Of a stretch of DNA of 64,000 bases, positions 53,147-63,466 are shown piece after piece. The first letter of the stretch is position 1. Every line of letters starts with the position of its first letter. The translations under genes and the position numbers were made by a program. The DNA is from Salipiger thiooxidans. GTDB taxonomy: Bacteria; Pseudomonadota; Alphaproteobacteria; Rhodobacterales; Rhodobacteraceae. Below the pieces are notes generated by a model. The model did not search any database, was not told the DNA's origin, and saw nothing but the letters and a program-made list of their open reading frames with translations. The stretch covers positions 248,001 through 312,000 of the forward strand of contig NZ_FNAV01000001.1 in the NCBI RefSeq assembly GCF_900102075.1. The letters are read 5' to 3'.

Positions 53147-54406
53147 TTAGCGGGCCGCAGCTGTCGCCGGGGACCCGCCCGCGGCGATGGCCAGCCCGTC
53201 GACGATGGCGGTGAAGGCATTCTCGGTGCGGATCGCGGCGCCGGGGAAACGTGCGCGCATCTCGTCGCCCACAAAGCGCATCAGGCTCGAGCCGCCGACC
53301 AGCACCACGTCCTCGACCTGCGCAGGCGTCAGCCCCGCCAGCGTCATCGTCTCGGCCGCCGCCTCGCCCAGCGCGGTGCGGTGGCTTGCAAGCGCCTGCC
53401 CGAGATCCTCCTGCGTCAGCCCGGCCGACAGACCCATTTCCACCACGTCGAGCAGGATGCGCCCCGCCGGTCCCTGACCGTTGGCGGCGATCTTGCCGCG
53501 TTCCACGGCAAAGGCGATCTGGTGGCCGGTCTCGTGCTCGAGCACCGAGCGGAACCGCTCGAGCCGCTCGGGCTCGACCGCCATGCGCGCCATGTCGGCG
53601 GCCAGTCGGCGCGTCTCGGGCGCGTAGAGGAACGGGATCTTGGCCCAGCTCGCGAGATCGACGAAGGGCGCGCGCGGGACCGGCAGGCGCCCATCGCCCA
53701 TTTCGCGGCGCAGCTCGCCGCCCAGCCCCAGCAAGGGCATCACATGCGCCAGCGACAGCGCCTGGTCGAAATCCGTGCCGCCCAGCCGGATGCCGTGGCT
53801 GGCAAGGATCTCGACCCGCCCACCCTCGGCCCGGAACAGCGAGAAATCCGACGTGCCGCCGCCGATGTCGACGATCAGCCCGACCCGGCCCGAGGGCCCC
53901 GACCTGTGGCTGGCGATGGCCGCGGCCTCGGGCTCGGCGAGGAACTCCACCGCCTCGAACCCGGCGGCGAGATAGCAGGCCCGCAGGTCCGCCTCGGCCT
54001 GCGCGTCCTTCTCCGGATCGGCGGTGTGGAAATGCACCGGCCGCCCGGAGAGCGCGCGGCGCAGGGTCAGCCCGGTCGCCGCCTCGGAGCGCACGCGCAG
54101 CTCGGCAAGAAAGGCCGCGATGATGTCCGCAAGGGTCTGGCGCCTGCCGCCGATCAGCCGCTTTTCGTGCAGGAGCGGCAGGCCGAGGACGCTCTTGAGG
54201 GCGCGCATGTAGCGCCCCTCCTCGCCCGAGATCAGCGCCTCGCCGGCCGAGGCCCCGATGCGCATCCGGTTGCTGCCCTCGGGGAAGAACACCGCCGTCG
54301 GCAGCGTGTCGTTGCCCCGTTCCAGCGGCACGCGGTAGACGCCGGCGCCGTGCGGCAGAGCCACCGCCGAGTTCGATGTGCCGAAGTCTATCGCTAGCGT
54401 GATCAT
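53147..54406 (-). CDS. Hsp70-family protein, YegD-like
   Basis: A 419-residue actin-like ATPase lacking the DnaK substrate-binding domain. Nucleotide-binding elements are AIDFGTSNSAVAL (5-17, phosphate 1), VDIGGGTSDFSLF (phosphate 2) and VVLVGGSSLMRFV (adenosine motif). EFLAEPEAAA precedes phosphate 2 as in DnaK. The domain layout matches YegD, a putative chaperone of unknown clients. It is divergent from the dioxygenase operon, with a 230-base gap holding the candidate operon promoter. Confidence 0.92.
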   Translation of the reverse strand: MITLAIDFGTSNSAVALPHGAGVYRVPLERGNDTLPTAVFFPEGSNRMRIGASAGEALISGEEGRYMRALKSVLGLPLLHEKRLIGGRRQTLADIIAAFLAELRVRSEAATGLTLRRALSGRPVHFHTADPEKDAQAEADLRACYLAAGFEAVEFLAEPEAAAIASHRSGPSGRVGLIVDIGGGTSDFSLFRAEGGRVEILASHGIRLGGTDFDQALSLAHVMPLLGLGGELRREMGDGRLPVPRAPFVDLASWAKIPFLYAPETRRLAADMARMAVEPERLERFRSVLEHETGHQIAFAVERGKIAANGQGPAGRILLDVVEMGLSAGLTQEDLGQALASHRTALGEAAAETMTLAGLTPAQVEDVVLVGGSSLMRFVGDEMRARFPGAAIRTENAFTAIVDGLAIAAGGSPATAAAR

Positions 54407-54571: not shown

Positions 54572-54600
54572 TTGGAGACTCACCCAGAACGTGTTAGGGT
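54572..54600 (+). promoter_or_regulatory. Candidate promoter of the seven-gene dioxygenase operon
   Basis: TTGGAG (54572-54577) and TAGGGT (54595-54600) are separated by exactly 17 bases and lie 36 bases before the ATG of the dioxygenase gene, in the gap divergent from the YegD-like gene. Confidence 0.45.
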
Positions 54601-54636
54601 GTGGTATTTTTCGCGCCCATATTGATCGGAAGCGAC

Positions 54637-56433
54637 ATGTCATTGCTCGGAACGCTCGCCCGCGCGACGGAATCCCGCCGTGTCTGGTTCAAATTCCCCT
54701 TCGTGCCCGCGATCATGATCATTCTCGGCCACCGCGAGAACCTGCGGCAGGGCAACCTCATCGACCTCGAGACCAAACCGCCCACGCCCAAGCCGGTTGA
54801 CGACCCGGTGAACTTCCGCACCGCCGATGGCAGCTACAACGACCTCGGCGCGCCCTGGATGGGCATGGCCGGCACGCGCTTCGGTCGCAACGTGAAGCCC
54901 GAGGCGGCGTTCGGCGAGACCGGCGAGGCGCTGCGGACCCCCTCTCCCCGTCTGGTGTCGAACCGGCTTCTGGCGCGCGGCGACTTTACCCCGGTGCCGC
55001 ATCTCAACGTACTGGCGGCGGCGTGGATCCAGTTCATGGTGCACGACTGGCTGTCGCACGGGTCGAACGACAAGGACCGGCTGCACGACATCCCGCTCCC
55101 CGAGGGCGACGACTGGGACGGCCCGATGAAGGTGCCCGCCACCACGCTCTCGCCCGCCGGAGACGGCGACGCCGGGCGCCCCCCCGCCTACACCAATGCC
55201 GAGACCCACTGGTGGGACGCCAGCCAGATCTACGGCTCGAGCGCCGAGCGGCTGGCCATGGTGCGCACCGGCTCGGGCACCGAGGTTCGGTCCGACGGCA
55301 CGCTGGCGCTGGACGAGCGCGGCCTGCTGCCCATCGACAGCCCCTCGGGCGTGGCCGACCTCGAGCTGAGCGGTGTCAACGGCAACTGGTGGATCGGGCT
55401 TTCGGTGCTGCACACGCTCTTCGTGCGCGAGCACAATGCCGTGGTGGCGCGACTCAGGGTCGATTATCCGACCGCCTCCGGGGAATGGCTCTTCGGCAAG
55501 GCGCGGCTCGTGGTTTCGGCGCTGCTGGCCAAGATCCACACGGTGGAATGGACGCCCGCGCTGATGGACAGCCCGGTCGGACGCATGGCCATGCGGGGCA
55601 ACTTCTGGGGCCTGATCGGCGAGCGTGCCACCGTCGCCAACGGGCGTTTCTCGGAAAGCGAGGTGGTCAACGGCATCCCCGGCTCGCCCGCCGATCACCA
55701 CGGTGCGCCCTATGCGATGACCGAGGAATTCGCCGCGGTCTACAGGCTGCACTCGCTGATGCCCGACGACTACGATTTCCGCCGCGCCGCCGATGACAGC
55801 CCGGTCTTGAAGACCGACCTTGCCGGCGTCAGCCACGGTGCCGCGCACCGGCTCTACCGCGAACTCGGGTTCGACGACGTGCTCTACTCGCTCTGCACCG
55901 AGCACCCGGGCGCGCTGGTGCTGCACAACTTTCCCAGGGGCCTGCGCAACCTGCACCGCGAGAACGGCCGGATGGTCGACCTTGCCGCCATCGACATCCT
56001 GCGCGACCGCGAGCGCGGTGTGCCGCGCTTTGCCGAGTTCCGGCGGCAGATCGGCATGTCCGTGCCGCAGACCTTCGGGGACATCACCTCGAACCCCGAA
56101 TGGGCGGCGGAACTGCGCGACGTCTACGGCACCGTCGACAAGGTCGACCTGCTGGTCGGCACGCTGGCGGAATCGCAGTCCGCCCGAGGCCAGCCGCCGC
56201 GCTTCGGCTTCTCGGACACCGCCTTCCGCATCTTCATCCTGATGGCCTCGCGCCGGCTCAAGTCCGACCGTTTCTTCACCGAGGATTTCCGCCCCGAGAT
56301 CTACACCGACGCGGGCTACCAGTGGGTCCTGCGCAACTCGATGCGCAGCGTGGTCGAACGCCACTGCCCCGGCCTGGCCCATGCCTTCGGCGACGCCCGC
56401 AACATGTTCTTTCCCTGGACGCGCGCGTCATGA
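54637..56433 (+). CDS. Animal-haem-peroxidase-family fatty acid dioxygenase (alpha-DOX/cyclooxygenase-like)
   Basis: A 598-residue soluble protein of the animal haem peroxidase superfamily. The distal haem motif WIQFMVHDWLSHG places His136, and HWWDASQIYG (191-200) follows, both as in plant alpha-dioxygenases. FVREHN (262-267) is also conserved. The proximal region EEFAAVYRLHSLMPDDY has Tyr369 three residues before proximal His372, the arrangement of the radical-forming tyrosine in cyclooxygenases and alpha-dioxygenases. It should therefore oxygenate fatty acids rather than act as a plain peroxidase. The ATG at 54637 was chosen over one 36 bases upstream. It is the first gene of the operon and overlaps the next gene by four bases. 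Confidence 0.88.
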   Translation: MSLLGTLARATESRRVWFKFPFVPAIMIILGHRENLRQGNLIDLETKPPTPKPVDDPVNFRTADGSYNDLGAPWMGMAGTRFGRNVKPEAAFGETGEALRTPSPRLVSNRLLARGDFTPVPHLNVLAAAWIQFMVHDWLSHGSNDKDRLHDIPLPEGDDWDGPMKVPATTLSPAGDGDAGRPPAYTNAETHWWDASQIYGSSAERLAMVRTGSGTEVRSDGTLALDERGLLPIDSPSGVADLELSGVNGNWWIGLSVLHTLFVREHNAVVARLRVDYPTASGEWLFGKARLVVSALLAKIHTVEWTPALMDSPVGRMAMRGNFWGLIGERATVANGRFSESEVVNGIPGSPADHHGAPYAMTEEFAAVYRLHSLMPDDYDFRRAADDSPVLKTDLAGVSHGAAHRLYRELGFDDVLYSLCTEHPGALVLHNFPRGLRNLHRENGRMVDLAAIDILRDRERGVPRFAEFRRQIGMSVPQTFGDITSNPEWAAELRDVYGTVDKVDLLVGTLAESQSARGQPPRFGFSDTAFRIFILMASRRLKSDRFFTEDFRPEIYTDAGYQWVLRNSMRSVVERHCPGLAHAFGDARNMFFPWTRAS

Positions 56434-57275
56434 GGGTGCCCGGGCTCATCGACATCGTCACCGTGCGCGACCCCGCCGCGCTGCGGGCGATGGCGGCGGA
56501 CCCGAGGCTCGACCGGCCGCAGACCGGGCGCGGACCGCTTCTCAACCGGCTGATCGCGCGGCTCGCCCGCGACACGCTCAAGGCCGACAATCACCTTCTG
56601 CCGAGCGGCCGCGCCCATGGCGACCACCGCCGCCACGACCTGCGCGCGGCGCTTTCGGCCCGGCTCACGGCACCGGGGCTGGAGGCGGCGCTGGACGGGC
56701 CGGTGCGCGACGCCGCAGTCTACGTGGCGGGCGGCGCGGGCGATCCGCTGCGGCTGGCGCAGGGGCTGCTGGGCCCGGTGCTGATCGACGGCTTCACCCC
56801 CAGCGACGACACCGTCGCGGCAGCAGCCACCATCGGCAGGCCGCTGAGCGGCGGCACGGGGCAGCAGGTGCTCGACTGGCTCACCGGGCGCTCGCGGCGG
56901 GCCCGCAAGCTGCTTTACGGTGCGGCCAACGGCGACCTGAACGCGGTGCACGCCATCGGCATCGCGTCGCAGAACCTTGCCGCCAGCCTCGATGCGATGC
57001 GCGCTGCCGGGGCTGCCACCCCCGCCGCCAAGATGCTTGCCCATGCCATGATCGCGCCCAAGAGGGTCCTGCGGCAGGGCACCGCCCCCGCGGAAACGCT
57101 GGGCGGGCCGGTGCGCGCCGGCACGCTGGTGCTGCTCTCGGTCGAGGATGCCACGAGGCGCACGCTCGACCCGCGCGTCGCCTTCCTGCGCGATGCCTGG
57201 AGCGGCTGCCCGGCGCATGGCTTCGTGCCCGCGCTCCTGCGGCGGATATGGACCGAGGCCGGGGGCGCGTCATGA
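56430..57275 (+). CDS. Short, degenerate cytochrome P450-like protein
   Basis: A 281-residue protein that I place near the P450 fold by pattern. IVTVRDPAALRAMAADPRLDR (9-29) looks like the P450 N-terminal beta region, and HGDHRRHDLRAALSARLTAP (63-82) like helix C (H-x-R-x-R-R). PKRVLRQGTAPAETLGG then PVRAGTLVLLSVEDA (210-241) resembles the segment after helix K. Cys260 in WSGCPAHGF is a candidate haem thiolate. The E-x-x-R of helix K is not recognisable, and the protein is over 100 residues shorter than usual. It overlaps the dioxygenase and OYE genes by four bases each. Loss of haem, or a specialised hydroperoxide-rearranging role, is possible. Confidence 0.55.
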   Translation: MRVPGLIDIVTVRDPAALRAMAADPRLDRPQTGRGPLLNRLIARLARDTLKADNHLLPSGRAHGDHRRHDLRAALSARLTAPGLEAALDGPVRDAAVYVAGGAGDPLRLAQGLLGPVLIDGFTPSDDTVAAAATIGRPLSGGTGQQVLDWLTGRSRRARKLLYGAANGDLNAVHAIGIASQNLAASLDAMRAAGAATPAAKMLAHAMIAPKRVLRQGTAPAETLGGPVRAGTLVLLSVEDATRRTLDPRVAFLRDAWSGCPAHGFVPALLRRIWTEAGGAS

Positions 57276-58606
57276 CCAAAGACGATCCGATCTTCGAGCC
57301 GCTGACCTTCCGCAGCCTCACGGTCAAGAACCGAATCTTCCGCTCGAACATCTCGGGCCGCTTCGACAACGAGGACGGCTCGCTCACCCAGACCCGGATC
57401 AACTGGGAATGCCGCTTCGCCGCCGGCGGGGCGGGCGCGGTGATCTCGTCCTATGTGCCGGTGCGCATGGACGGGCGCATCATCGCGGGCTACGCCACCA
57501 TCCATCGCGACGACTTCATCCCCGCCTGGGCCAAGCTCGGCGAGGCGGTGCGGGCCCACGGCGCGCGCTACATCCTCCAGCTCAGCCATTCCGGCCGGCA
57601 GATGGACCTGCCGGGCGTGCACAACATGCAACGGGCGTCGCCCTCGCCCACCTCGGCGCCCGAGACCCTGCACGGCTTTCTCACGCAGGCGATGTCCACC
57701 GGGCAGGTCCGGCAGATGGTGCGCGATTTCGCCCGCGCCGCGTGGCGCGCCCGCGAGGCCGGACTCGACGGCATCGAGTTGCACGCCGCCAACGGCTATC
57801 TCTTCACCCAGTTCCTGAGCTCGGCCATCAACGACCGCAAGGACGCCTACGGCGGCGGGCTGCGCAATCGCGCCCGCTTTCTGCTCGAGGTCATCGCCGC
57901 GATCCGCGAGACCGTCGGCCGCGAGTTCCACCTGCAGGTCAAGCTCTCGGCCACCGACCACAACAACGTCATCCCGTGGGAGGGCCGCGGCAACACCGTC
58001 GCCGACACCATCAAGGTGGCGCAATGGTGCGAGGCCATGGGCGCCGATGCCCTGCACATCTCGACCGGCTCGCTCTTTCCGCACCCGCTGAACCCGCCGG
58101 GGGACCTGCCGCTCGACCTGCTTGCGATCGCCTACGACGCGATGATCTCGAGCGGCATCCACGGCTTCCGCAACTTCCTGCTGTTCCGCTATCCGGCGCT
58201 GCGGCCGATCTTCCGCTGGATCTGGTTCCGCATGAAGGCGGGCCGCCCGGTGCAGGGCGTCGGGCTCGACGAGGCACGGATGATCCGCGAGGCAGTGACG
58301 ATCCCGGTGATCTCGACCGGCGGCTGGCAGAGCGCCACCGCGATTCGCGATGCCCTGACCAAGGTCGACGCGGTGTCGATCGCCCGCTCGCTCGTCGCCA
58401 ACCCCGATTTGCCGCAGCACTGGGCCGCCGGAAACGACCTGCCGCCCCGCCCCTGCACCTATTGCAACAAGTGCCTCGTCGGGGCGCCCAAGCTGCCGAT
58501 GGGCTGCCACGAGCTGTCGCGCTTCCCCTCGCGCGAGTCGATGATCGACCAGCTGATGGAGGTCTACGCCACCAAGCCCGTCCTCCGCATCCCGGAGGCG
58601 CGATGA
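57272..58606 (+). CDS. Old Yellow Enzyme family NADH:flavin oxidoreductase
   Basis: A 444-residue FMN-dependent enone reductase-type TIM barrel. The substrate-binding pair is His171/Asn174 with proton donor Tyr176 in ELHAANGYLFTQFLS, followed by DAYGGGLRNRARFLLEV. FMN contacts at the end of the barrel are seen in VISTGGW and SIARSLVANPDLP. The C-terminus has four Cys (395, 398, 401, 412) in PCTYCNKC and GC, close to the iron-sulfur site of dienoyl-CoA reductases, but the additional FAD domain is missing. It is the third gene of the operon, overlapping both neighbours by four bases. Confidence 0.9.
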   Translation: MTKDDPIFEPLTFRSLTVKNRIFRSNISGRFDNEDGSLTQTRINWECRFAAGGAGAVISSYVPVRMDGRIIAGYATIHRDDFIPAWAKLGEAVRAHGARYILQLSHSGRQMDLPGVHNMQRASPSPTSAPETLHGFLTQAMSTGQVRQMVRDFARAAWRAREAGLDGIELHAANGYLFTQFLSSAINDRKDAYGGGLRNRARFLLEVIAAIRETVGREFHLQVKLSATDHNNVIPWEGRGNTVADTIKVAQWCEAMGADALHISTGSLFPHPLNPPGDLPLDLLAIAYDAMISSGIHGFRNFLLFRYPALRPIFRWIWFRMKAGRPVQGVGLDEARMIREAVTIPVISTGGWQSATAIRDALTKVDAVSIARSLVANPDLPQHWAAGNDLPPRPCTYCNKCLVGAPKLPMGCHELSRFPSRESMIDQLMEVYATKPVLRIPEAR

Positions 58607-60102
58607 CCTATCACAGCGCCGTCGAAGCCGAACTCGCCCGCCGCCGCCGTCTCTGGCGGCCCCTGCTGGTGCTTGTGCTGATCGTATTGCTGGCGGTGGT
58701 GGTGCTGGGCATCGCGGTGGTGCTGCGCGTGCTGCCCTCGGGCACGCCCCATTACCGCTCGGAGGATGCGCATTTCCGCCATGGCTCGATCGGGGCCGAG
58801 CCAGAGTCCGGCATCCCCTACAAGGTCTGGATGGCGCTGCCCGAGCTCTTCCCCGAGCGCTTCGCGCCGCAGGGCGACTACTCGGCCTTTGGCTTCCTCT
58901 ATGACGGTGAGACGCTTCCGGTGGGCATCTCGCGCCGCACCGTGAGCGGCGTCGAGCTGGTCTGGTTCAACTGCGCCGTCTGCCACACCGGCACCGTGCG
59001 CGCCAACGCCGAGGCCGCGCCCGAGCTGATCTCGGGGATGCCCGCGCAGCAGCTCGACCTGCATGGCTTCACCCGCTTCATCCTCGACGCCGCCACCGAT
59101 CCGCGGGTCTCGCCCGAGAGCCTGCGCGCCGCAATGCGCGACAGCGGCAACGCGCTCGGCCCAGTCGAGGCCCTGATCTGGCGCTTCGCCGTCTTCCCGC
59201 GGCTGCGCGAGGGCATGATCGACCGCGCCGCACGGCTGTCGCCGCTGCTCGACCGCCAGCCCGCGTGGGGGCCGGGCCGGGTCGACACGTTCAACCCCTA
59301 CAAGGTGCTGGCCTTCCGCCAGCACGCACGCGAGCTGACCGAGGGCGAGGTGGTCGGCGCCTCGGACTTCCCGTCGATCTTCCTGCAGGGCCCGCGCGAG
59401 GGGATGCAGCTGCACTGGGACGGCAACAACACCAGCCTCGCCGAGCGCAACCTCTCGGCGGCGCTCGGGGCCGGGGTCACGCCCGCCACCGCCGATCATC
59501 CGGCCATCGAGCGCATCGCCCGCTGGCTGCGCGAGCTGCCTCCACCGCCAAGCCCGCACCGCCCCGACCCCGCCGCCGTGGACCGGGGCCGCGCGGTCTA
59601 TGCCCGCGACTGCGCCGGATGCCACGGCCGGCAGGGCGACGACGGCTATGTCTTCGAGGGCGCCCGGCTGGGCACCGTCGAGCCGCTCGCCAACGTGGGC
59701 ACCGACCGCGCGAGGCTCGACAGCTACACCCAGAGCTTCCGGGATGCGCAGGTGCGCGAACTTTTCAAAGGCACGCCCCACGCGTTCCGCAACTTCACCA
59801 AGACCGACGGCTACGCCAACGCGCCGCTCGACGGGCTCTGGCTGCGCGGGCCCTACCTGCACAACGGCTCGGTGCCGACGCTGGCCGACCTGCTGGCCCC
59901 TCCCGAGGCGCGCCCGCCCCGCTTCCGCCGGGGCGGCGACGTCATCGACCCGCAGGGCGGCTTCGTCTCGCCCCCCTGCGATGGCGGGCCCGGCTGCTTC
60001 GACACCGCCCTGCGCGGCAATTCCAACGCCGGGCATCTCTGGGGGACGGGGCTGCCCGTCCCCGAGAAATCCGACCTTCTCGCCTATCTTCTGACCTTCT
60101 GA
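58603..60102 (+). CDS. Membrane-anchored diheme c-type cytochrome
   Basis: A 499-residue protein with an N-terminal transmembrane anchor (about 20-42) and a periplasmic domain with two haem c motifs, CAVCH (124-128) and CAGCH (337-341). The C-terminal region has RGPYLHNGSVPTLADLL, a stretch seen in RoxA-like and other di-haem oxidases/peroxidases. No signal peptidase site is evident, so it stays anchored. It would move electrons or oxidise a substrate on the periplasmic face. The start overlaps the OYE stop by four bases. The partner and direction of electron flow are unknown. Confidence 0.85.
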   Translation: MTYHSAVEAELARRRRLWRPLLVLVLIVLLAVVVLGIAVVLRVLPSGTPHYRSEDAHFRHGSIGAEPESGIPYKVWMALPELFPERFAPQGDYSAFGFLYDGETLPVGISRRTVSGVELVWFNCAVCHTGTVRANAEAAPELISGMPAQQLDLHGFTRFILDAATDPRVSPESLRAAMRDSGNALGPVEALIWRFAVFPRLREGMIDRAARLSPLLDRQPAWGPGRVDTFNPYKVLAFRQHARELTEGEVVGASDFPSIFLQGPREGMQLHWDGNNTSLAERNLSAALGAGVTPATADHPAIERIARWLRELPPPPSPHRPDPAAVDRGRAVYARDCAGCHGRQGDDGYVFEGARLGTVEPLANVGTDRARLDSYTQSFRDAQVRELFKGTPHAFRNFTKTDGYANAPLDGLWLRGPYLHNGSVPTLADLLAPPEARPPRFRRGGDVIDPQGGFVSPPCDGGPGCFDTALRGNSNAGHLWGTGLPVPEKSDLLAYLLTF

Positions 60103-60112
60103 GGAGCCCGCC

Positions 60113-60532
60113 ATGAGCACCCTATCCATCGGCTGGACACAGGCAGACGCCCATCGGTCCCTGACCCGCTTCCGCCGGCTGCTGGCGGTGAACCTCGCCC
60201 TGCAATCGCTGGTCGCCCTGCTCTGCGTCCTCGCCCCCTCCTGCGGCGCCTGGATCACCGGCATCGAGCCGTCGCTGGCGCGGCCGCTGCTGCCGGTCTG
60301 GGGCGGGCTGGTGCTGCTGGTCTCGGCGCTGCAGGTGCTGGCATGGCTCGACCCGGTCCGGCAGCGGTTCCAGGTGGCGATCGCGCTGGCGGGGCGGGTG
60401 CTGATGGCGCTGATCTACCTCTGCCTCGGCTGGCAGTTCTGGCGCTTCGCGATCTTCGACGCGGGCTTCGCGCTGGCGCTGGGGATGCTTTTCCACCGCG
60501 CCCTGATCGCCGAGATACAGACCCGGACCTGA
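60113..60532 (+). CDS. Four-helix integral membrane protein
   Basis: A 139-residue protein with four predicted transmembrane helices and short loops (LLAVNLALQSLVALLCVL, LLPVWGGLVLLVSALQVLAW, IALAGRVLMALIYLCLGW, FAIFDAGFALALGMLF). The layout resembles small DoxX-like or cytochrome-partner membrane proteins, but no signature is present. It starts 10 bases after the cytochrome gene with GAGGAGCCCGCC upstream, so it is part of the operon. It may anchor or receive electrons from the cytochrome, which is inference. Confidence 0.8.
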   Translation: MSTLSIGWTQADAHRSLTRFRRLLAVNLALQSLVALLCVLAPSCGAWITGIEPSLARPLLPVWGGLVLLVSALQVLAWLDPVRQRFQVAIALAGRVLMALIYLCLGWQFWRFAIFDAGFALALGMLFHRALIAEIQTRT

Positions 60533-60563
60533 CCGCCGGGCCAAGCGAAGGAGGGCCAGCACA

Positions 60564-62600
60564 ATGAACGGAACCCCCAACAAGCGCGCCGCCGTGGTGA
60601 TCGGGGTCAGCACCTCTGCGGGCCTGACGCCACTCGTGTCGGCCCCGTCAAGCGCCAGCGAGATCGGCGACTGGCTGCGGCAGCTCGAGCCCGGCTACGA
60701 CGTCACGGTCATCACCGACAAGGACGGCACCCCCGTCACCCGCAAGCAGATCTTCGACGCCGTCTCGCACTACCTGACGCCCACGCGCTACGAGATGCTG
60801 GTGATCTACTACATCGGTCACGGCCTCTTCCAGAACGCCAGCGACGTCTGGATGCTGAGCGGCGCCCCCGGAGATCCCGCGGAATGCGTGAACTTCGACG
60901 AGAGCCGGGATTCCGCCAAGTTCTGCGGGGTCAAGAACGTGGTCTTCGTCTCGGACGCGTGCCGCTCGCTGCCCGCCACGCTGGGGCAGGCGCGGCTGCA
61001 GCCGAGCAGCATCTTCCCCTTTCTCGACCGCTTCCCGCGCCCGACCGGCGAAATCGACTATTTCTGCGCCACCGCCGAGGGGCTCCCGGCCTACGAGGGC
61101 ACCATCGAGGGCACGCGCCAGTCCTTCCTGACCCACGCCATCCGCGCCGCCTACCGCACGCCGCGCCCGAACATGCTGCGGGTGGTGGATTACGACGGCA
61201 AGGCCCGGCAGGTGGTGCCGAACCGGGCGCTCAAGGCCTTCCTGCGCGACACCATCACCGAGACGCTGAGCGACGTCGACTTCACCAAGATCCAGCCGGT
61301 GGAGGTCAACGTGGTCGCGGACGACGACGTGTTCATGGCGGTCCCCGATCCCGCGCCGCCCGTCCCGCCGACGCCCGAGGCGCCGCTGCCGCGCGGCACC
61401 CCGCAGCCGGCGGGAGCCGCGAAGCCCGATGGTCCGGCCCCCGCCGGCGTCGCACCGGGGCTCTTCCGCAGCCGCCCGAAGACGGTCGACGACCTGACCA
61501 AGATCCATGGCATCGGCAGGGTGATGCGCGACCGCCTGCAGGCGCTCGGCGTCTACCGCTTCGCGCAGATTGCCGAATGGGAGGCGCCCGAGATCGACTG
61601 GGTCGCCGCCCGGCTGCGCGGCTACCGCGGCCGGATCGACCTTGACGACTGGGTCGCACAGGCGCGCAACCTGACGGCAGCGCCCGCCGCCCCGCCCGAA
61701 TACCGCGAGCCGCAAGAGATCGTGCGCCGCGCCCTCACCGGACAGCCGGTGGTGCCCGGGGCACCGATGGCCACGGCACTCTCGGAAGACATGCGCGCCC
61801 GGATGCCCGACGCAAGGGTGCAGAGCTTCGAGACCGAAACCGGCTTCACCCTCAGCGGCGCCAAGATCCGCAAGGTCGCGGTGTCGCAGCACCCGATGGG
61901 CGGGGGCCGTGCCGAACGCGCCCCCGAGAAGGTCTCGGGCACGGATCTCGGCGTGATCCGGGTCTATCCCAACGGCCCCGCCGGTCAGATCGCCATCCGC
62001 CTCGCCGACGGGCGCTGCCTGCTGGTGCCGTTCCTGCAAGGCTACATCGGCCACATTCACATGGAGCCCTCGGGCATGGCGGCGCTCTCCTACGTGCCCA
62101 GCATCTACTCCCCCCGCTCGGCACAGCTCGGCGGACAGCGCCCCGAGCTCGACACGCTGCGTGCCGCCGCGACGCTGGCGCTGGACGAGCGCCGCTTCGA
62201 CGCGGGCGCGGCCGCCCGCGGAAACGGCCTTGCGAATGCGATCCGCACCGGCGGCATCATCGACCCGGTGCTCGGGCTTTACGCGGCCTACGCCTATTCC
62301 GACGCCAGCCAGGATGACCTAATCCCCGGGCTCTCGAGCGAGATCGTGGCCGACCTTGCCGCCGATCTCTTCGACGTGCGGCTTCTGTCGCATCGCAGGT
62401 GGACCGAGGCCGGGCTGCCGCCGGTGGTGCCCGCCTGCCCGCTGCTGACCCGCGGCTGGAACCTGCTGCCCTCGCGCGGCGCCACGCTGGCGCCCGCCCT
62501 GCAGGAGGCCGGTGCCCATCTGACCAACGCGCTCTGGACCACCTTCGGCCCCGAGGCCTCGGGGCCGATCTTCGACGCCATTCAGAAAGGAGAGATCTGA
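60564..62600 (+). CDS. Caspase-like (C14) protease with helix-hairpin-helix domain
   Basis: A 678-residue cytosolic protein. The N-terminal caspase-fold domain has the catalytic dyad His86 (YYIGHGLFQ) and Cys133 (VSDACRS). A Pro/Ala-rich linker (about 261-297) follows, then a helix-hairpin-helix type domain (about 306-370; KIHGIGRVMRDRLQALGVYRFAQIAEW when written in two parts, KIHGIGRVMRDRL and QALGVYRFAQIAEW). The last 300 residues are unassigned and contain two long beta-rich segments. It starts 31 bases after the membrane protein gene with GAAGGAGGGCC upstream, and its stop overlaps the hydrolase start (TGATG). Confidence 0.85.
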   Translation: MNGTPNKRAAVVIGVSTSAGLTPLVSAPSSASEIGDWLRQLEPGYDVTVITDKDGTPVTRKQIFDAVSHYLTPTRYEMLVIYYIGHGLFQNASDVWMLSGAPGDPAECVNFDESRDSAKFCGVKNVVFVSDACRSLPATLGQARLQPSSIFPFLDRFPRPTGEIDYFCATAEGLPAYEGTIEGTRQSFLTHAIRAAYRTPRPNMLRVVDYDGKARQVVPNRALKAFLRDTITETLSDVDFTKIQPVEVNVVADDDVFMAVPDPAPPVPPTPEAPLPRGTPQPAGAAKPDGPAPAGVAPGLFRSRPKTVDDLTKIHGIGRVMRDRLQALGVYRFAQIAEWEAPEIDWVAARLRGYRGRIDLDDWVAQARNLTAAPAAPPEYREPQEIVRRALTGQPVVPGAPMATALSEDMRARMPDARVQSFETETGFTLSGAKIRKVAVSQHPMGGGRAERAPEKVSGTDLGVIRVYPNGPAGQIAIRLADGRCLLVPFLQGYIGHIHMEPSGMAALSYVPSIYSPRSAQLGGQRPELDTLRAAATLALDERRFDAGAAARGNGLANAIRTGGIIDPVLGLYAAYAYSDASQDDLIPGLSSEIVADLAADLFDVRLLSHRRWTEAGLPPVVPACPLLTRGWNLLPSRGATLAPALQEAGAHLTNALWTTFGPEASGPIFDAIQKGEI

Positions 62601-63466
62601 TGAGGATCCTGTTCGTTCACGGCCGCGCGCAGGGCGGCAAGAGCTCGGCCTCGCTGCTGGCCGAATGGCGCAAGGCGCTGGACCGGGGGCTGGGCTCGGC
62701 GGCGCTGTCGCTACCGGGATCGGTGAGCTTCGACCAGCCGTTCTACGGCGACACGCTCGACGACTTCGTCACCCGCGCCAAACTGCCCTCGACGCAGGAG
62801 CTGGTGCAGATGGGCCCCGGGCAGGATCAGGGCTACGAGCTCTTCGCCCAGTCGGTGCTGCAGGAGATGAGCACCAGCGCCGAGATCTCCGAGACCGAGA
62901 TCCGCCAGCAGATGCCCGAGGGCGAGCTGCAGGAAATGGGGCCGCAGAACTGGGAATGGGTGCAGGCGCTGGTGCAGGTCATCGACGGGCACTGGCCGGC
63001 GATCTCGGGCGTGACGATCGAGAAGTTCCTGACCGACGTCTACCTCTACCTCGACAAGCCCGCGGTGCGGAAGACGATCGACGGCATCGTCGAGGCGGCG
63101 CTGACCGACCAGCCGACGGTGGTGGTGGGCCACTCGCTGGGCAGCGTCGTGGCCTACAACGTGCTGGTGAAGCACGCCCCACGCATGAAGCTGGCGGGCT
63201 TCCTGACCATCGGCTCGCCGCTGGGGATCAAGGCGATCACCGCGCTTCTCGGGCTGCCGCGCAACCCCGCCGCCGGGCGCTGGGTGAACGCCTACGACAA
63301 GCGCGACATCGTGGCGCTGAACCCGCTGAACGCCAAGCACTTCCCAGTGGCGCCGCCGGTCTCGAACTTCTCCGGCGTGCGCAACCACACCGACAACCGC
63401 CACGGCATCGCGGGCTACCTCGACGATCCCACGGTGGCCAGGCAACTGGTGGCCTTCGCGACCTGA
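62600..63466 (+). CDS. Alpha/beta-hydrolase (lipase/esterase-like) coupled to the caspase gene
   Basis: A 288-residue cytosolic alpha/beta-hydrolase. It starts with the family strand RILFVHGRAQGGKSS (oxyanion region), the nucleophile elbow is VVVGHSLGSVVAYN (Ser179), and the predicted base is His268 in DNRHGIAGYL; the acid may be Asp233 or Asp236 in AYDKRDIV. A helical insertion of about 110 residues (60-170) forms a lid. Its ATG overlaps the caspase stop by one base, indicating strict co-translation. It may be a lipase supplying fatty acids to the dioxygenase, or an effector activated by the protease. Confidence 0.87.
   Translation: MRILFVHGRAQGGKSSASLLAEWRKALDRGLGSAALSLPGSVSFDQPFYGDTLDDFVTRAKLPSTQELVQMGPGQDQGYELFAQSVLQEMSTSAEISETEIRQQMPEGELQEMGPQNWEWVQALVQVIDGHWPAISGVTIEKFLTDVYLYLDKPAVRKTIDGIVEAALTDQPTVVVGHSLGSVVAYNVLVKHAPRMKLAGFLTIGSPLGIKAITALLGLPRNPAAGRWVNAYDKRDIVALNPLNAKHFPVAPPVSNFSGVRNHTDNRHGIAGYLDDPTVARQLVAFAT

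Follow-up and report, generated by a model that had tools for sequence, protein, structure and literature searches.

Seven closely spaced plus-strand genes of Salipiger thiooxidans raise the question of whether they encode one system or two. They lie in a stretch of 64,000 nucleotides (contig NZ_FNAV01000001.1, positions 248,001 to 312,000), here called the window, which is part of a 462-kb contig in a 5.87-Mb genome. A preliminary description had read them as a single bacterial oxylipin pathway with its own fatty-acid-releasing hydrolase and a protease for a cell-fate response. The seven genes and the gaps between them (-4, -4, -4, +10, +31 and -1 bases in the open reading frame (ORF) list of the window) were confirmed, and the gene annotation proved right in outline. 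The run, however, is made of two modules: A (genes 1-5, 54637-60532) and B (genes 6-7, 60564-63466). Genes 1-5 are likely to form a bacterial fatty-acid oxygenation module, and genes 6-7 a separate one. The oxylipin idea is retained for module A, a conserved set in which an alpha-dioxygenase-like (alpha-DOX) protein comes first and a P450 fold second, and is given up for the seven-gene run as a whole.

Conservation of the two gene sets

Judged by sequence comparison, genes 1-5 are a conserved unit, kept in order and diverging in step. The five-gene order is kept in seven loci: the window, Alloyangia pacifica, Roseibium sp., Tateyamaria sp., Neoroseomonas eburnea, and two further loci, L075 and L086, the former in a genome of another family and the latter in one with the genus code of Tateyamaria. 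The named hosts span Rhodobacterales, Hyphomicrobiales and Acetobacterales (orders checked for three names). No internal stops were found in the 35 matched protein stretches (five genes in seven loci). Pairwise distance matrices of the five genes correlate (r 0.83-0.97); in a test with 5040 permutations, the identity among them, the observed value was attained 1 to 19 times. Conservation of gene order beyond close relatives had been put forward earlier as a test of the whole run; in the sampled loci it is seen for the five-gene set and is lacking for the seven-gene set.

Module A is rare. The four named loci beside the window came from a search for a tightly defined peptide motif surrounding the gene 2 Cys, which gave 4 relatives among 49 stretches; with so strict a pattern, further module A loci will have been missed. 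Counting the window's own genome, the P450-like gene occurs in 3 of 295 genomes of its family, and alpha-DOX (E 1e-60) in 5 of 20 genomes of the genus, 4 of 341 of the order and 2 of 385 of the class, these samples overlapping in part. Among plasmid records with matches, contexts were opened for 5 of 28 with alpha-DOX, 5 of 16 with the caspase, 7 of 61 with the hydrolase and 2 of 46 with the diheme protein.

Module B has its own distribution. Sixteen caspase loci apart from module A were fetched (L051-L055, L065-L067, L070, L076, which is the same place as L017, L088-L091, L098 and L099); the hydrolase adjoins the caspase in 15 of them, and module A is present in none of the stretches fetched there. 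Four of these loci (L065, L066, L067 and L070) were reached through the hydrolase, so that its presence in them is no test; without them the figure is 11 of 12, two of the 12 being Sinorhizobium plasmids that resemble near-duplicates. The sole miss, L091, matches the caspase part only, and in L090 an in-frame stop interrupts both genes. One genome of the window's own genus (G678) has module B and no alpha-DOX match. Conversely, module B is missing from the fetched stretch in one variant and in five further loci of module A. Both observations speak against the seven genes as one system.

Table 1. Coordinates of the features discussed (window positions unless a locus is named; aa, amino acids)
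Feature	Position	Strand	Remark
Module A gene 1, alpha-dioxygenase-like (animal haem peroxidase family), 598 aa	54637..56433	+	PF03098 E 2.3e-104
Module A gene 2, short P450-fold protein, 281 aa, invariant Cys260	56430..57275	+	
Module A gene 3, Old Yellow Enzyme family, 444 aa, Cys395/398/401/412 motif	57272..58606	+	PF00724 E 1e-59
Module A gene 4, RoxA-like diheme cytochrome c, 499 aa, hydrophobic N-terminus (by eye)	58603..60102	+	PF21419 E 4.2e-14
Module A gene 5, small hydrophobic protein, 139 aa	60113..60532	+	same place in seven loci
Junction of modules A and B, 31 bases	60533..60563	+	no terminator- or promoter-like match
Module B gene 1 (gene 6), caspase-fold protease	60564..62600	+	
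Module B gene 2 (gene 7), alpha/beta hydrolase-like, 288 aa, GHSLG nucleophile motif	62600..63466	+	
Catalase-alpha-DOX fusions	L050:4954-7782; L049:4870-7719; L072:6150-8861		PF00199 26.5-42.2 vs cut-off 25 bits

Proposed chemistry of module A

From its sequence, the gene 1 product is alpha-dioxygenase-like, with a predicted catalytic Tyr and haem-binding His. It matches rice alpha-DOX 4kvj over the whole length (4kvj residues 36-617, E 2.8e-103), and Y369 aligns to a position occupied by Tyr in 4kvj and by Phe in 4kvl. Y369 presumably corresponds to Tyr379 of the alpha-DOX numbering, and H136 and H372 are taken to have the distal and proximal roles; the three residues are invariant in 12 of 12 family members. 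No alpha-DOX matches were found in viral contigs.

The product of gene 2, whose closest named relative is a protein of Salipiger sp. HF18 (98% identical), has a P450 fold, as borne out by the predicted structure. Profile methods pass it by: the Pfam p450 profile matched none of 15 family members at E up to 1, and the family profile gave two chance matches only among PDB sequences. All 15 members share Cys260, Trp257, Phe252, His174 and Asn182 without exception, and Cys260 is the candidate axial haem Cys. The motif ExxR is characteristic of P450 enzymes; none was seen by eye before the Cys in the 15 sequences, and the Cys loop differs from FGxGxHxCxG. The protein may be no monooxygenase, and the family may represent a new short P450-fold family.

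Gene 3 encodes an Old Yellow Enzyme (OYE) with a clear Oxidored_FMN domain (PF00724, 203 bits against a cut-off of 27). It had been likened to the plant enone reductase OPR3, a comparison that found no support: its best solved matches are YqjM-type NADPH dehydrogenases, none of the best 60 of 138 solved matches is an OPR by name, and the family carries a C-x2-C-x2-C-x10-C motif with all four Cys invariant in 8 of 8. This motif resembles what we take to be the iron-sulfur motif of FadH/BaiCD-type enzymes; the best NCBIfam matches are of that kind, far under cut-off (177 bits against 793, and 173 against 825). Gene 4 contains a RoxA-like domain (PF21419, 52.3 bits against 26.7) and two CxxCH motifs, invariant in 11 of 11; its best solved match by profile is RoxA (4b2n, E 2e-23), and it falls just under the NCBIfam diheme peroxidase cut-off (148.3 against 150). 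Gene 5 matched nothing in Pfam or NCBIfam.

The products and functions of module A are what we infer from sequence and model. The dioxygenase would add O2 to a free fatty acid at C2, and the short P450 would rearrange or reduce the resulting 2-hydroperoxide. The OYE could then remove or add a double bond adjoining the new oxygen function. The diheme protein would be membrane-anchored, with its haems on the outer side of the inner membrane, and may re-oxygenate the lipid or accept electrons. The outcome would be an oxidised, oxylipin-like fatty-acid product, possibly exported.

The same logic of a dioxygenase paired with a P450 is found in fungal enzymes, as had been proposed for genes 1 and 2; Ppo is presumably one of these dioxygenase-CYP fusions. 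Fungal linoleate dioxygenase-CYP fusions are described as diol, epoxyalcohol and allene oxide synthases in which a COX-like haem dioxygenase has a P450 partner that acts on the hydroperoxide (PMC13049297, available part). In module A there are two separate genes, the dioxygenase is an alpha-DOX and not an 8-, 9- or 10-DOX, and the P450 fold is far shorter and does not have the customary Cys loop. The same source, in its available part, describes a Nostoc 10S-DOX with a catalase-related hydroperoxide lyase, which likewise pairs a haem dioxygenase of a bacterium with another haem protein for the hydroperoxide; the module A dioxygenase is of a different branch and its partner has a P450 fold. In relatives a catalase-family partner is fused to the alpha-DOX. 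In Pseudomonas aeruginosa, the oleate-diol synthase proteins (PA2077/PA2078, FadCcp) are described as RoxA-like diheme proteins that act on fatty acids within the periplasm, and gene 4 is RoxA-like too; the available part of that source (PMC4496055) mentions neither a haem-peroxidase-type dioxygenase nor a P450 or OYE as belonging to the synthase, and the two are likened by description, not by sequence. The cyanobacterial alpha-DOX enzymes CalDOX and LepDOX belong to the family of gene 1, and alpha-DOX in Proteobacteria has already been reported by phylogeny; they are presented as single enzymes, the words 'gene cluster' occurring 0 times in the main text as available (PMC8720084).

No described system like module A, and no paper on the small P450, was found in the literature searched, subscription papers being mostly outside reach. 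Few bacterial oxylipin routes appear in the literature covered, namely the P. aeruginosa diol synthase and the cyanobacterial 10S-DOX with its lyase. An operon of an alpha-dioxygenase and a 281-residue P450-fold protein would add another, would show the dioxygenase-P450 partnership as split genes in Alphaproteobacteria, and would offer a very small P450 overlooked by profile annotation. A wider proposal is made tentatively: module A may be a bacterial equivalent, so far undescribed, of the fungal oxylipin pathway of dioxygenase and P450, with an alpha-dioxygenase, very short P450s of a new family acting on the 2-hydroperoxide, an OYE of the iron-sulfur type and a diheme enzyme anchored in the membrane, leading to a new class of lipid mediators, and with a caspase-hydrolase death pair coupled to its transcript in one lineage.

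Module A could instead be catabolic, serving the alpha-oxidation of fatty acids or other hydrophobic substrates, or the removal of peroxidised lipids, rather than the making of a signal. Plant alpha-DOX is described as beginning alpha-oxidation to aldehydes (PMC8720084, available part), and RoxA, the best solved match of gene 4, as cleaving rubber (PMC4496055, available part). Patatin or GMC oxidoreductase genes lie close to some related clusters, and an SDR and a 3-hydroxyacyl-CoA dehydrogenase/thioesterase protein are encoded near the alpha-DOX of locus L087. Against this, aldehyde dehydrogenase or acyl-CoA ligase was found in 0 of 20 neighbouring proteins scanned, which are a part of the neighbours, and the distribution is sporadic, as the family count of the P450-like gene shows. 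A catabolic role is considered rather unlikely.

It is also rather unlikely that gene 2 is a degenerate, non-catalytic P450 which merely holds haem or scaffolds the dioxygenase. Its 281 residues, the features missing around the Cys, and the highest divergence among the four larger module A proteins would fit such a role, but the five residues invariant in all 15 members suggest a working site.

Some relatives have another second haem partner. In each of the three cases scanned, on rhizobial-type plasmids of Rhizobium phaseoli and Phyllobacterium and in a genome of the window's genus, a catalase-family domain precedes the alpha-DOX and is joined to it; such a fusion looks like a dioxygenase and a hydroperoxide enzyme in one protein. 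Two more genomes of the genus have open frames of similar length, outside the three fusions scanned for domains. The swapped partner indirectly supports gene 2 as a handler of the hydroperoxide, and the Nostoc pair agrees.

The caspase-hydrolase pair and the junction

Gene 6 consists of a caspase fold (about residues 6-260), a stretch designated HHH (about 302-372) and a C-terminal region (about 420-678). The fold has a His/Cys dyad (His86, Cys133) as in clan CD. The NCBIfam model of EACC1-associated caspases gave 30 bits, under its cut-off of 140; in PADLOC the caspase protein model alone matched residues 33-148 (E 0.0012), a protein-model match that leaves system rules aside. No EACC1 domain was reported in Pfam and NCBIfam scans of genes 6 and 7.

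A search with the whole of gene 6 matched 272 of 295 family genomes (E 0.001). This figure was rejected as a caspase count: among the matches listed, nearly all are the HHH stretch with its flanks (about 199-424), and the caspase part is matched by the window and one other genome (G106) only. The HHH stretch (window 61467-61679) appears as a lineage-wide add-on domain and is also picked up by the NCBIfam models NuoE, L21, PhaH and S2.

In the gene 7 family, Ser179, Asp233, Asp236 and His268 are invariant in 7 of 7. The earlier suggestion that gene 7 releases fatty acids for the pathway found no support: its relatives accompany a caspase, or in three other loci a CHAT protein or AAA ATPase, and patatin phospholipase genes occur near some related clusters (annotated in the L062 cluster; after module A in L075). 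Gene 7 was rejected as a pathway-specific releaser; the alpha/beta hydrolase encoded near the Qingshengfaniella alpha-DOX has no real BLASTP similarity to it (E 0.49). The relatives without a caspase lie beside a CHAT-domain protein in Sinorhizobium fredii (L064:5001-7006), and adjoin 4.5-kb AAA ATPase genes in two Streptomyces plasmids (L068:4995-10360, L069:4986-10357). In the Sinorhizobium plasmids (L052:7716-8681, L054:7716-8681) the annotated hydrolase has, by eye, an extra N-terminal twin-arginine-like signal, which would mean export. Viral contigs gave three weak, partial matches to the hydrolase (28-35%).

The pair is a widely scattered candidate module for cell death or defence, as far as gene content can tell. 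The caspase would probably cut and activate the lipase- or esterase-like hydrolase, which would be the effector. EACC1-type systems are described as combining a caspase or other protease with effectors, alpha/beta-hydrolase being among the effector domains (PMC8195603, available part), and in antiphage nuclease-protease pairs the protease is described as activating the nuclease (PMC12799240, available part). Module B differs from both in that the partner is a separate alpha/beta-hydrolase gene. No description of a caspase-alpha/beta-hydrolase pair was found in the literature searched; the pair now has a clear two-gene definition.

Among the loci fetched, modules A and B adjoin only in the window and in Alloyangia pacifica. 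The Alloyangia module B is broken: caspase matches fall in three frames, none of them covering residues 69-166 with the dyad His86/Cys133, and those to the hydrolase change frame and end at residue 227. The module A matches of this genome have no internal stop, and a second, apparently whole caspase-hydrolase pair lies on another contig (L099:2932-5762). Together with the loci that have module B alone, this means that module A persists where B decays and B occurs where A is absent. Module B is probably unrelated to module A in its job; it would have become the immediate downstream neighbour of module A in the Salipiger/Alloyangia lineage, where it may use that module's transcript without sharing a task.

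Several observations weigh against two separate modules, or against the pathway proposed for the first. The junction of 31 bases has no terminator-like site, so that one seven-gene transcript is possible; the scan found 2 such sites against 3.2 expected, and 0 sigma-70 promoters against 0.4 expected. The same order of A and B in two related genomes makes the association at least as old as their split. The matched distances of genes 1-5 would be explicable by plain co-inheritance of linked genes. Gene 5 compared with the small protein of rhizobial clusters gave a weak hhalign probability of 17. Finally, alpha-DOX occurs without the P450-like gene at L047-L050, L072-L074 and L087, leaving seven loci and one variant as the basis for the pathway. 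Even so, a single integrated system, in which lipids oxidised by genes 1-5 are sensed or acted upon through the caspase and hydrolase, is very improbable: the tight spacing, the open junction and the Alloyangia order favour it, but the module A loci without B, the caspase-hydrolase pairs without A and the decay of B beside an open module A in Alloyangia all speak against it.

Variants and related clusters

The one variant of module A, in Qingshengfaniella, has alpha-DOX and the P450-like gene, the OYE being replaced by an opposite-strand diheme gene and a FAD-binding protein. Two rhizobial plasmid clusters (L062:5443-15386, L063:5433-15389) share the OYE (49%) and the diheme protein (45%) with module A, and carry in addition a small membrane-type protein, a second diheme-like stretch, a large cytochrome c-like protein and a GMC oxidoreductase; no alpha-DOX match was found in these two stretches.

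At L087:8243-11648 an alpha-DOX 64% identical to that of the window has no P450-like or OYE match nearby and is divergent from a FAD_binding_4 oxidase, the same as in Qingshengfaniella. In the window itself, a minus-strand ORF (53147-54406), by eye a Hsp70/actin-like chaperone, is divergent from module A. In a Streptomyces plasmid (L048:1-7940), alpha-DOX lies beside a benzoylformate decarboxylase, a FAD-linked oxidase, a P450 and an alpha/beta hydrolase.

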